47,399 bases of DNA from Candidatus Njordarchaeota archaeon (GTDB lineage Archaea; Asgardarchaeota; Njordarchaeia; Njordarchaeales; Panguiarchaeaceae): positions 1 to 47,399 of the forward strand of contig JAHKKZ010000004.1 of assembly GCA_029856685.1 (NCBI GenBank), given 5' to 3'. The notes beneath the pieces are model-generated. The model made no database searches and was not told the origin of the DNA. It saw nothing but the letters and a program-made list of their open reading frames with translations. A program made the position numbers and the translations under genes. Positions 10,045 through 37,940 of this stretch are shown piece after piece; within the stretch, counting starts at the first letter, position 1; each line of letters starts with the position of its first letter.

Positions 10045-10599
10045 ATGATGTTACAAAAAAATCGATTAAAAACGGACAGCAGATTATTGAAAGTAGTATG
10101 CGTAGTGAATTGGCAACAATTTTTTGACATTATGGAGGAACTAGAAAGAGAGGGGGTCATGATTCAAGCTATTCCATGTGACTTAGTAGTCTGCGATGAA
10201 ATTCTAGACTTTGTCCTAGATTTAGTTATAGAGATGTTTAATTCTGGAAAAAATATAGCGAAGAAGATATATATGGAGTATATCCTTAGATTTCTCGCCA
10301 AAACCCAGATAAGGGAAGTAATTAGCATAATGGAAAAAATCCCAGCTCGAGCATATTGTCTTATAGTCTATTCACGAAGTAATAGAGCATCAGTAGTTTA
10401 TGAAGACCTATTAGGCAAGGGTATTATAAAGGAAGTCCCCATTAAGTTGTGCAAAACAAATATTGACAGAGTCGTAGAGGTCTATGAGCTAGATAAGGAT
10501 AGGTTAGCTCTTCAAGCAAAATTCAGGAATCAATCATTCGAAGAAATATTATGCAAGGCAATTCTAGAAAAAATTTCCCTTAGCCTTATATCAAAATAG
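10045..10599 (+). CDS. cgi121: KEOPS complex subunit Cgi121-like
   Basis: Helical core NSGKNIAKKIYMEYILRFLAKTQIREVISIM resembles the Cgi121 EiLLylagtrQIseAI motif. Confidence 0.65.
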   Translation: MMLQKNRLKTDSRLLKVVCVVNWQQFFDIMEELEREGVMIQAIPCDLVVCDEILDFVLDLVIEMFNSGKNIAKKIYMEYILRFLAKTQIREVISIMEKIPARAYCLIVYSRSNRASVVYEDLLGKGIIKEVPIKLCKTNIDRVVEVYELDKDRLALQAKFRNQSFEEILCKAILEKISLSLISK

Positions 10600-12084: not shown

Positions 12085-13077
12085 ATGACTAAATATCAGC
12101 TAAGAAAAGTACTTGTGTTGGGCCCCGCAAATGCGGGGAAGACATCCATAGCTAAGTTTATCTCAACAATTAATAAGCAATATGCATTAAAAGTCTCCCC
12201 ATCAACATCTGTTGAAAAATTTAGGCTCTCAATTTTTTCGTTTCGAATAAATGTATTTGTAACTCCTGGTCAAAAACGTTTTCAGAGTAAAAATCTTGAG
12301 TACCTAAGTAGGATCCTCGACCCTAGCACAATAGTTTTGTATGTCATAGATGCCTCGGAAAGACACAAAATAAGGGATTACTTGGAGGAGTTCGTAGAAA
12401 TCTTACGTAGGATTAATAAGATTTTTTCCAGTCACTTTCCAAATGACAAGATCGATGTTGTTTTTCTTGCGCACAAACAAGATTTAGTTGGAGCTATTAG
12501 TGTTCGGAGTATACTGAGCAAAGGTGTTAGAAAAAAGATAGCTAGACTCTTCCCTCAAATAAATCTGCGTGGATATGATACTAGTATCTATATGCCATCG
12601 TCTCTGCTAAGAATGTTTCGCGACACAATACTCTCAAAAATAATTCCAGTTGATTCTATAGAGGCATTGATAGCTCGACTGAGGGACTACGCGAAGGCAG
12701 AAACAGTGACTTTGGGAGACGAGATGGGTCTGCCTATAATCTTCGAGGGCGATCTAAATATGGCATCATGGTCGTCATCATTCGCAGCGAGAATCATTGA
12801 ATCCCTAGAACGTGAGAGGGAGCTATCGGTGGATTTGGTAGAGGAGGCCAATAAGAAACTATTTAAAGGGAACAGTGATTTTCGAATATGCCTAAGACTA
12901 GTACTAGGGCAAAGAGAGATAGCCGTATACATATACAATAAGGATTGTCGAGCAGTAAGCCTAATATTGGTTGGCCCACAAAACGTATCAGAGGCTACAA
13001 ATGATTACATGCTAGAAATTACCGAAAGACTATTCTTCAAGATCCATCAGGGGCGGTATTCATATGTCGATTCTTAG
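12085..13077 (+). CDS. Ras-superfamily GTPase, Rag/Gtr1-like, with C-terminal roadblock-like region
   Basis: G1 GPANAGKTS; G3-like VTPGQKRF; G4 HKQDLV (Rag-type HKxD); G5-like DTSIYMPSSL; then SIEALIARLRDYAKAETVTLGDEMGLPIIFEGD. Confidence 0.72.
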   Translation: MTKYQLRKVLVLGPANAGKTSIAKFISTINKQYALKVSPSTSVEKFRLSIFSFRINVFVTPGQKRFQSKNLEYLSRILDPSTIVLYVIDASERHKIRDYLEEFVEILRRINKIFSSHFPNDKIDVVFLAHKQDLVGAISVRSILSKGVRKKIARLFPQINLRGYDTSIYMPSSLLRMFRDTILSKIIPVDSIEALIARLRDYAKAETVTLGDEMGLPIIFEGDLNMASWSSSFAARIIESLERERELSVDLVEEANKKLFKGNSDFRICLRLVLGQREIAVYIYNKDCRAVSLILVGPQNVSEATNDYMLEITERLFFKIHQGRYSYVDS

Positions 13078-13798
13078 ACATATAGAGAAGTTCAACTCAA
13101 GGATATTATGCTTTGTTGGGTTCGCCGAATTCGACGAGGTAGAAGGGCCTGTCGTCTCGAAGATAGTACCAGAGAGTTTCCCACTAGACCTAGAGATGAA
13201 TTATGTTATCGCCGATCATGCACTATATCCCAATAGCAAAGCAATCTATGAGGTACGATCTCTACTAATATTTGCGTATCCCTTTACAATAGAACATGAA
13301 GCCTTACCGCGAAAAACCAAAAAAGTCGCCGTGATAGTAGCATTTAGCAAAAAGGCAGATCGCGATATCATACTGAGGATAATATCAGACCTGGAACCTA
13401 AGATAGAACTAACAATTACCGAATTTCTATCGAGCATAGAACCGCCTGTTGATAGCCAAGCAGAAAAACTTGTAAAAACTATCTATCTGGCTGCAAAGAA
13501 AAGAATAAAGAACATTCTGCTTAACAGATTTAGTGAGTCAGGATCCCAGATTAGCGCTAAAAACCTAGATGAAATTTTGGAAAATTCGGCTATAATCGAT
13601 TTAGCATTTAATGTTGTCTTAACAAAGAACCAGCGAATCATCGATGATTTCATGGAGGATCCAGAAAATTATCTCGTTGTATGGATAAATACAAAAAAGA
13701 TTGCTATCATAAATAAATATATACTTCGAGAATATAATTCATATAGACTGGAAGAAATCCTTAGAGTTCTAGAGACCCAAATATACAAGTATAATTAA
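13064..13798 (+). CDS. Longin-like domain protein (Nprl2/DENN-type N-terminus), coupled to the upstream GTPase
   Basis: ILCFVGFAEFDEVEGPVVSKIVPESF and FAYPFTIEHEALPRKTKKVAVIVAF; 14-bp overlap with the GTPase ORF. Confidence 0.5.
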   Translation: MSILRHIEKFNSRILCFVGFAEFDEVEGPVVSKIVPESFPLDLEMNYVIADHALYPNSKAIYEVRSLLIFAYPFTIEHEALPRKTKKVAVIVAFSKKADRDIILRIISDLEPKIELTITEFLSSIEPPVDSQAEKLVKTIYLAAKKRIKNILLNRFSESGSQISAKNLDEILENSAIIDLAFNVVLTKNQRIIDDFMEDPENYLVVWINTKKIAIINKYILREYNSYRLEEILRVLETQIYKYN

Positions 13799-13874: not shown

Positions 13875-13940
13875 CAGTCATTCCTTTTTTAAAACAAATA
13901 TCATGGTAGTTTAGTGTTATGGCAAATCTTTTGGTGTTTT

Positions 13941-14195
13941 ATGCTTGAAGAGGTGTATGTTGTGTTTCAGAACTACACTAGAATCCTGACGGTTAAGGTG
14001 TCAAAGCAGCTGATTCAGCTTATAGATTATATAGTCTATGAACTGGGACTATATAGTTCCCGTTCGGAATTTATTCGGGAGGCTATTAGGCAACATATTC
14101 AAAGGATTCTGGAAAATAATAAGAAGCTGCTGGAGGAAGCCTCAGATAAGAAGCCGCTTAAAAAGCTCCTTAACGAAATACTATCATCCCCCTAA
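13941..14195 (+). CDS. Ribbon-helix-helix (CopG-like) DNA-binding protein (listed ORF starts at 13914)
   Basis: RILTVKVSKQLIQLIDYIVYELGLYSSRSEFIREAIRQHIQRI. Confidence 0.8.
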   Translation: MLEEVYVVFQNYTRILTVKVSKQLIQLIDYIVYELGLYSSRSEFIREAIRQHIQRILENNKKLLEEASDKKPLKKLLNEILSSP

Positions 14196-16315: not shown

Positions 16316-17419
16316 ATGGTTAGCAGTGTGATAATACGATACATATTTAATGAATTAGGCATCCTATACGAAATCCCAGATTTATATTCTATAGTTCTCC
16401 AAGCCCTATGCAGAATTCCGAGAGGTAAGATAACCACATATAGGGACATTAGCAAGGCGCTGGGGGATACTATCGCGGCTAGAGCCATTGGATATATCAT
16501 GAAGACGAATCCCTGCCCTGATCGATATCCATGCTATAAGGTTATAAGTTCTGATGGTAGCCTCGGGGGGTATAGCCTTGGTTCCGAAAGGAAATCGATG
16601 CTTCTCCAAAAGGAGGGTGTAAAGGTTATGGGGCAAAAGATAATTGATTTTGAGAAGCACCTAGTAGATATATCAGACCTCAGATTGCCCCCCGTCCTAC
16701 TCTCTATGAGAAGGCTGCAAGAATTTATATCAGATAGGGTATCTTTAATTACCGAAAGAAAAAATATTCGCTTTGTAGTAACATTTGATTTGTCATTTGT
16801 AGATGGTCCCCTAGACATAGGGATTGGTGTAGGATGTGCTTTTGATGTTGATAACGAAGAGCTTTTAGGAGTAGGGATAAGTTTTGTTCCTGTTTTTATG
16901 CCTTATATACCTACGTACCTTGCCTTTAGGGAACTACCGGCAATCTTAGGCAGTCTATCAGCAGTTATCGAATATATCCCCCGAATCGATGCTATAATTC
17001 TAGATGGGCAGGGCATTCTCCATCCAAGGGGCCTAGGAATAGCATCACATGCGGGGGTGATCACGAATATTCCGTCAATTGGTGTGGCAAAAAGCATATT
17101 GGTTGGAAGAATCTCGGGGAAGTGGACATATAGAGGTGATTTAAAGTATGCGCCAGTAGTATACAATAATAAGGTACTTGGATTCCTAGTAATTAAGAAC
17201 AAACATAAGATCGTAGTTTCTCCGGGACATAAATTCTCTGTTGATGATGCTCGTGATTTCGTCCTAAGCTTAGAGTGGCCAAGAAATGAGGCAGAGCCCC
17301 GCATAATAAGATTGCCCCACAAAATAGCATCGAGGATAAAAGAGTTTGTTAAAAAATATCCTAAGTTGCTAGAAAGTAGAAGTAAAGGGCAGAAATCACT
17401 AGACGATTTCTTCTTATAG
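16316..17419 (+). CDS. Bifunctional O6-alkylguanine-DNA alkyltransferase - endonuclease V fusion
   Basis: IPRGKITTYRDISKALG, NPCPDRYPCYKVISSDGSLGGYSLGSERKSMLL (AGT), then VVTFDLSFVD, FRELPAIL and ILDGQGILHPRGLGIASHAGV (EndoV). Confidence 0.9.
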   Translation: MVSSVIIRYIFNELGILYEIPDLYSIVLQALCRIPRGKITTYRDISKALGDTIAARAIGYIMKTNPCPDRYPCYKVISSDGSLGGYSLGSERKSMLLQKEGVKVMGQKIIDFEKHLVDISDLRLPPVLLSMRRLQEFISDRVSLITERKNIRFVVTFDLSFVDGPLDIGIGVGCAFDVDNEELLGVGISFVPVFMPYIPTYLAFRELPAILGSLSAVIEYIPRIDAIILDGQGILHPRGLGIASHAGVITNIPSIGVAKSILVGRISGKWTYRGDLKYAPVVYNNKVLGFLVIKNKHKIVVSPGHKFSVDDARDFVLSLEWPRNEAEPRIIRLPHKIASRIKEFVKKYPKLLESRSKGQKSLDDFFL

Positions 17420-37112: not shown

Positions 37113-37940
37113 CTAAAAACTTCTTATCCTCCGAATCCTTCTGTAAAATGATATCAATACAAGTATAGCCCCCATAGAACCTATCATCAGCAGAATTAAT
37201 CCCACAAGCAGTAATGGCACCACTAAATCCTTTATTGGCAAGAATATTATAGCTATCGAAAAAGCTGTAGCAGCATTAAGGATGAAGTGTGCGAATATTG
37301 ATTCTAGTAGGCCAAAATCAATGAAAATATACGCCAAAATTATCCCAGCTACGAAAGCATTAACTACTCCAAGAAATCCAAGATACATATGAGGAATACT
37401 AAATATTATCGCCGATACCACCGCTAGTAACCCCGTGAAGAAATTCTTCTTTCGTATTCCTCCAAAGAACATGCGGGCCTTACCGTACCTAAATACGCAT
37501 GGTATCCCAACGAGAAAACCCCTAAAAAACAATTCTTCTAATATTGGGGCCCATAGAACTAAAGCAGGCACAAGAAGAGGAGATGGTGCCAGCTTTACTT
37601 TGCTATCCAAAAAAGAGAGTATTAGTGTTACTGCTATTTGGATAGATACAAGATCTAATATCAATCGATATTCGGTTTGTTGTTCCAGATAGTTCCTAAC
37701 AATTTGTATCAGAGCTATCAATAAGATTCCTAGATACACACCATTCAATATTGTTGCGGTCGCCCCTCTAATAATTTCTGGAGATATGAGCCAAGGGATG
37801 GCCAATAAGGAATAGTTTAGGATAACATTTATCATGATGCCAAGTGATGCTATTCCTATAGAAGCAAGAGACATTATCAGAATAAAGTTTATGGTTCTTA
37901 TGAATCCTAAATATTTGTTATTCCTTGAAATGGTGCTCAC
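37113..37940 (-). CDS. CPBP/CAAX-family intramembrane metalloprotease
   Basis: APILEELFFRGFLVGIP (EExxxR), FSIPHMYLGF, IFAHFILNAA. Confidence 0.85.
   Translation of the reverse strand: MSTISRNNKYLGFIRTINFILIMSLASIGIASLGIMINVILNYSLLAIPWLISPEIIRGATATILNGVYLGILLIALIQIVRNYLEQQTEYRLILDLVSIQIAVTLILSFLDSKVKLAPSPLLVPALVLWAPILEELFFRGFLVGIPCVFRYGKARMFFGGIRKKNFFTGLLAVVSAIIFSIPHMYLGFLGVVNAFVAGIILAYIFIDFGLLESIFAHFILNAATAFSIAIIFLPIKDLVVPLLLVGLILLMIGSMGAILVLISFYRRIRRIRSF

Follow-up and report, generated by a model that had tools for sequence, protein, structure and literature searches.

A Rag-type GTPase and its probable off-button, a pairing familiar from eukaryotic nutrient signalling, may already stand together in an archaeal operon

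The window considered here, by which we mean the whole stretch of 47,399 nucleotides that was analysed, corresponds to contig C187 in the MAG of an archaeon, which comprises 252 contigs with 1.93 Mb altogether and is about 79% complete. It carries two overlapping genes on the same strand, a Rag-like GTPase and a longin-domain partner, whose features are collected in Table 1. The start of the second gene 14 bp within the first, already pointed out in the first-pass annotation, is confirmed by the ORF coordinates, and the partner peptides quoted there match the sequence exactly. The genes around the pair belong to translation and housekeeping (eIF2 gamma, Cgi121, tRNAs).

Table 1. Features of the GTPase-longin pair, with positions in the window
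Feature	Position	Strand	Basis
Rag-like GTPase, 330 aa: G domain (about residues 7-185) and C-terminal roadblock	12085..13077	+	Pfam, AF2, Foldseek
P-loop GPANAGKTS (residues 13-21)	12121..12147	+	G13, G18, K19 and S21 invariant in 19 GTPases
Switch II VTPGQ (residues 59-63); Asp of G3 DxxG replaced by Val, Gly and Gln kept	12259..12273	+	alignment A8
G4 HKQD (residues 130-133), Rag-type HKxD, not NKxD	12472..12483	+	alignment A8
Predicted roadblock domain (residues 189-321), a-b-b-a-b-b-b-a	12649..13047	+	AF2 secondary structure
Longin-domain partner, 244 aa, ATG start	13064..13798	+	AF2 pLDDT 80; best Foldseek PDB matches are GATOR1/SEAC chains; 43% identical ortholog in G001
ORF overlap, 14 bp, probable translational coupling	13064..13077	+	ORF coordinates; orthologous pairs overlap by 26, 11 and 4 bp
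Predicted longin domain (residues 14-123), b-b-a-b-b-b-a	13103..13432	+	AF2 pLDDT about 81-93 over most of it; profile A4 against PDB
Arg83 codon, b4-b5 loop, aligned to NPRL2 Arg78 (arginine finger)	13310..13312	+	AF2 strands and NPRL2 alignments
Partner C-terminal region (residues 124-244): long helix 129-158, then small alpha/beta unit	13433..13795	+	AF2, lower confidence

Some other genes of the window deserve a brief mention. Cgi121 encodes a KEOPS subunit (window 10045-10599; L048 2409-3011) and is found close to the pair in G000, G001 and G005; the surroundings are partly conserved. Just downstream of the pair (13914-14195) is a small ribbon-helix-helix protein of the CopG type, weakly similar to the aCcr1 family of cell-cycle regulators (E 2e-6, under the cut-off). 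Further on are an endonuclease V fused to an O6-methylguanine methyltransferase domain (16316-17419) and a CAAX-type, Rce1-like membrane protease (37113-37940).

The identity of the first protein as a Rag-like GTPase, proposed earlier from the letters, is well founded. It scores 62.8 bits against Pfam Gtr1_RagA (E 4.1e-17, cut-off 22), and its AF2 model, built with 19 homologues (pLDDT 82, pTM 0.80), predicts with good confidence a Rag fold that includes a C-terminal roadblock. When this model is compared by Foldseek with the whole PDB, ranks 1-19 are all Rag, Gtr or LokiRagO chains (E 7.6e-16 to 5.8e-12), with LokiRagO 8yl2 at the top and RagA/RagC and Gtr1 also present; these matches span about 320 columns at TM-scores of about 0.6-0.7, and Arl3 ranks behind them. 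At the position of the roadblock, Pfam Robl_LC7 gives a match in a homologue from the distant family f23, under the cut-off (E 0.0088). HKxD in G4, found here as HKQD, is a hallmark of Rag GTPases. We nevertheless say "Rag-like", since the G3 motif reads VTPGQ and not DxxGQ. The PGQ of this motif is no proof of RagC over RagA, and we reject that argument because RagA/Gtr1 chains are matched at least equally well in structure.

In alignment A8 the site of the G3 Asp is occupied by V, I, A or F in the order to which the window belongs, in f23 and in the small paralogs, whereas other Asgard Rag-like GTPases have D. The loss (window 12259-12261) thus extends over the whole clade, in which switch II always reads Pro-Gly-Gln or Pro-Gly-His, and with this Asp missing the handling of Mg2+ and GTP may be unusual. 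Rag GTPases form obligate heterodimers by way of their roadblock domains, and two more related GTPases are encoded in the window's own genome. Among phylum-mates the number of Rag-like GTPases in a genome reaches 17, and one phylum-mate protein finds its best match in Lokiarchaeota GTPase structures; we take the archaeon, a deep-branching one, to be probably of Asgard lineage.

For the partner, the AF2 model (nine homologues, pLDDT 80, most of residues 16-123 at 81-93) has the order of strands and helices of a longin, and we conclude with good confidence that the first 125 or so residues are predicted to form such a domain, as had been supposed. Foldseek against the whole PDB places GATOR1 or SEAC chains at ranks 1-5 (E 5e-5 to 1.2e-4), a Lokiarchaeota longin domain at rank 6, chains of the FLCN-FNIP complex at ranks 7-8 (E 4e-4 to 1e-3 for the FLCN-FNIP/Lst4-type matches), GATOR1 complex chains at ranks 9-10, the Lst4 longin at rank 11 and 6ces_N, which is NPRL2, at rank 12; for some of the other chains the GATOR1/SEAC assignment is at the level of the complex. 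All of the 13 best matches are thus GATOR1/SEAC, FLCN-FNIP/Lst4 or Loki longin, and Sec22b and Vamp7 come behind. The overall TM-scores are modest (at most 0.38 on the query), as expected when a single domain is shared. No transmembrane segment is obvious in the window partner, and its C-terminal region finds no match in Pfam.

The likeness to NPRL2 was also followed at the level of sequence. Searches with the single partner sequence (Pfam, PDB by phmmer, NCBIfam) gave nothing credible; a bacterioferritin identity was dismissed, being a sub-threshold match only. With profile A4, made from the N-terminal domain of nine archaeal sequences, two NPRL2 sequences rank first and second among 177,635 PDB sequences, with an alignment that keeps register along almost all of the domain, but at an E-value that is weak (0.077; the next match is at 0.73). 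This result leans on the window protein and on L005, its 43% identical ortholog in genome G001, since profile A5, which omits both, finds no NPRL2 match in PDB; in hhalign, A5 still aligns its first motif to NPRL2, and A4 aligns in register to the NPRL2 stretch with P 7e-4, against 0.016 (over a short stretch) and 0.18 for control families. Because of this dependence we ran shuffle tests sequence by sequence. Residues 14-112 of the window protein score 53 against the NPRL2 longin stretch, compared with 25.6 ± 4.5 for the shuffles, of which 1 in 2000 is as high. L003, a divergent ortholog (24-27% identical to the window partner) that lay outside the material of the first-pass annotation, scores 48, again with 1 of 2000 shuffles as high, and the f23 member L049 scores 42 (8 of 2000). 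The corresponding z values are 6.0 for the window, 4.9 for L005, 5.3 for L003 and 3.9 for L049, as against -1.3 to 3.3, mostly near 0, for 16 other Asgard longin domains.

The NPRL2-like N-terminus that had been noticed therefore stands, by shuffles above chance and by fold matches to GATOR1/SEAC. We do not class the partner as NPRL2, since Pfam NPR2 (PF06218) matches neither the window protein nor its homologues and IML1/DEPDC5 was not found; no NPR2 match exceeds the cut-off in 99 genomes, and the sub-threshold matches there are all at places other than the pair. That it works like NPRL2 is at best an analogy.

In the model b4 covers residues 67-77 and b5 residues 85-95, with Arg83 between them, and this residue is paired with Arg78 of NPRL2 in the profile, hhalign and single-sequence alignments alike, its position having been recomputed. 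In GATOR1 the catalytic residue is this Arg78, with Npr2 Arg84 as the yeast equivalent (PMC10316081, PMC9646525), and in longin-type GAPs the arginine finger sits between b4 and b5 (PMC12803157). Of 13 loci compared, 12 have the loop arginine: the window, L005, L003 (where it reads YSR and is displaced by two columns in the MAFFT alignment) and the nine of f23. It is missing in L009, the partner of G003. The residue before it varies (P/T/A/S). Other longins that adjoin Asgard GTPases (the A10 family and f14) do not have it. We also considered Loki family A9, in whose corresponding loop RR is invariant, as a further NPRL2-type case, but it aligns with NPRL2 over a short stretch only and with A4 over 24 columns, and its arginines were not counted.

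The two genes are conserved as neighbours, and with the longin fold this means that two of the conditions by which the first-pass annotation would have been refuted do not apply. Every one of the 13 genomes in which a partner was found, four in the order and nine in f23, has them adjacent and on one strand; in f23 the GTPase likewise precedes the longin directly and, outside the order, is the GTPase that matches best. Within the order the overlaps are 14, 26, 11 and 4 bp in G000, G001, G005 and G003, which represent three families, and the paired proteins stay together at 15-49% identity in differing surroundings. In genus g2 one of six genomes has the pair, and MAG gaps or misbinning are possible there. 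In MK-D1, by contrast, small GTPase genes are generally outside operons with longin or roadblock genes (PMC10933270).

Other longin-GTPase neighbours occur in f5, f14, f15 and f10 and among membrane-anchored paralogs. In L047 (2295-3904, G001:C24) and L043 (1787-3423, G003:C295, minus strand) a second kind of pair is found, in which a small Rag/Arf-like GTPase gene overlaps by 4 bp with the gene of a protein that seems to be anchored in the membrane by its N-terminus and is longin-like at its C-terminus (GVVYFHERKGPML; ISLSFIEISSEIGPRF); the L047 protein has a homologue with 49% identity, L127, in the window's genome. In L114-L119 and L125 (f5, Loki-like) a Rag-like GTPase of about 399 aa adjoins a longin (about 290 aa) whose likely b4-b5 loop has an invariant "RR" (L-D-R-R-T-Q-K-E-G-I-L-G), and the two are a further candidate longin GAP pair. 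L102-L113 belong to a longin family (about 360-400 aa) that is widespread in Asgard archaea, present in many families (71 of 118 genomes matched) and mostly without the loop arginine; in some genomes it adjoins an N-terminally extended GTPase (L104, L108, L109). Finally, fusions of a longin N-terminus to a Rag-like G domain are seen in L017 (1021-2421), L091 (7247-8662), L025 and L030, and in L017, L025 and L091 a conserved gene for a protein of about 210-230 aa comes next.

What, then, might the pair do? The partner is most likely a cis-encoded regulator of the adjoining GTPase and, by analogy with NPRL2, probably a GAP. In the scheme that we favour, its longin domain would bind the GTP-bound G domain, Arg83 would enter the active site beside switch II Gln63, and GTP hydrolysis would be speeded; the overlapping start would hold the two proteins at a fixed ratio. 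We infer the complex, its chemistry and its stoichiometry from the observations above, and to the full statement, that the locus is a two-gene operon of a Rag-type GTPase and a dedicated longin regulator acting as a stand-alone GAP, in the manner of NPRL2 within GATOR1 and with neither DEPDC5 nor TOR, we would give about an even chance. Against it stands that the known longin GAPs of Rags act as heterodimers, a second longin gene being absent from the pair's operon, and nothing cautions more strongly against a plain GAP than the missing G3 Asp. The proposal of a GTPase-regulator pair in one operon thus gains from the conserved coupling, the Rag-type GTPase and the NPRL2-like longin, but the "nutrient sensing" that was attached to it is unsupported: IML1/DEPDC5 (PF12257) gives no match over the cut-off in the genomes of 39 relatives (the window's own genome being about 79% complete), the Pfam NPR2 cut-off is not reached, and the neighbours are translation and housekeeping genes.

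The main rival to a GAP is a partner that serves as binding platform, exchange factor or effector, like MglB, Ragulator or the TRAPP longins, with a loop arginine that is incidental or for binding only, and we regard this as a serious possibility. Longin and roadblock proteins are mainly GEFs or scaffolds and only sometimes GAPs (PMC10933270), the longins beside the GTPases of A10, f14 and G003 are without this arginine, and with the G3 Asp lost, GAP chemistry could be less probable. The fold matches, however, favour Rag-GAP longins over those of TRAPP, SNARE or Mon1 type, and the arginine is at the right place, invariant in the nine f23 genomes and present in three of the four of the order.

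If the G3 replacement by V, I, A or F throughout the clade is given more weight, one may think of the pair as a static adaptor, for membrane or assembly, whose Rag-like protein is degenerate and hydrolyses slowly, with marginal nucleotide cycling, and the paralogous pairs of G001 and G003, with their apparently membrane-anchored longins, would agree with it; we hold this to be improbable, considering the intact P-loop, switch II Gln and HKQD and the lack of an obvious transmembrane segment in the window partner. It is more improbable still, to the point of being hard to credit, that the adjacency is historical only and the partner a longin of unrelated function. Longin domains do have many roles and the interface between the two proteins is hypothetical, but the pair is together in 13 of 13 genomes, at low identity and in differing surroundings.

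Of the elements discussed here, the NPRL2-like longin as an Asgard family, the Rag-like GTPases and the GTPase-longin fusions are already known; the conserved overlapping operon, the loop arginine and the G3 Asp loss are new. An "NPRL2-like longin domain" asCOG is listed among the Asgard eukaryotic-signature families of Ca. L. ossiferum in PMC9834061, the only place in the literature searched where Asgard and NPRL2 are mentioned together. The question behind the pair is how eukaryotic Rag GTPases came under the control of longin GAPs. It is tempting, and we offer it as a speculation that we ourselves find rather doubtful, to think that pre-eukaryotic archaea had a two-gene Rag switch, made of a roadblock-tailed Rag GTPase and a stand-alone longin GAP with the arginine finger of GATOR1, to which DEPDC5, the pairing with NPRL3 and the control of TOR were added later. 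The scarcity of operons has been given as the reason why Asgard GTPases are difficult to match to their regulators (PMC10933270). Where an operon is conserved, it points to the GTPase, to the regulator and to a residue for mutation, so that the question becomes directly testable with two small proteins, and the arginine-less longin families beside other Asgard GTPases are a natural control set.

It remains to set the pair beside the systems that it recalls. With NPRL2 (Npr2) of GATOR1/SEACIT the partner shares the N-terminal longin, an E-F-(D/H)-x-x-x-G-P motif after b1, the arginine of the b4-b5 loop at the Arg78 site and the company of a Rag-type GTPase, by gene adjacency here and by site of action in NPRL2; it differs in length (244 aa against 380), in remaining under the Pfam NPR2 cut-off and in its C-terminal 120 residues, modelled with lower confidence where NPRL2 has a C-lobe. 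Unlike GATOR1, the operon has no NPRL3 gene and the search gave no DEPDC5 match. FLCN-FNIP and Lst7-Lst4 (GAP for RagC/Gtr2) likewise put a longin on Rag GTPases and resemble the partner in fold, but they rank under the GATOR1 chains and no sequence match to them was found. The asCOG is likened to the partner by name, the gene pairing and the catalytic arginine not being described in the available part of its source (PMC9834061). LokiRagO (8yl2) and LokiRagM (8zla) have the same Rag G domain followed by a roadblock. Fusions of longin or roadblock domains with GTPases have already been described (PMC10933270), whereas the longin of the window pair is a separate, overlapping gene. Finally, MglA-MglB of Myxococcus also places a small GTPase under a regulator of the longin/roadblock superfamily (PMC10933270), but MglB forms a roadblock homodimer that has GEF/GAP activity, and its GTPase belongs to another family.
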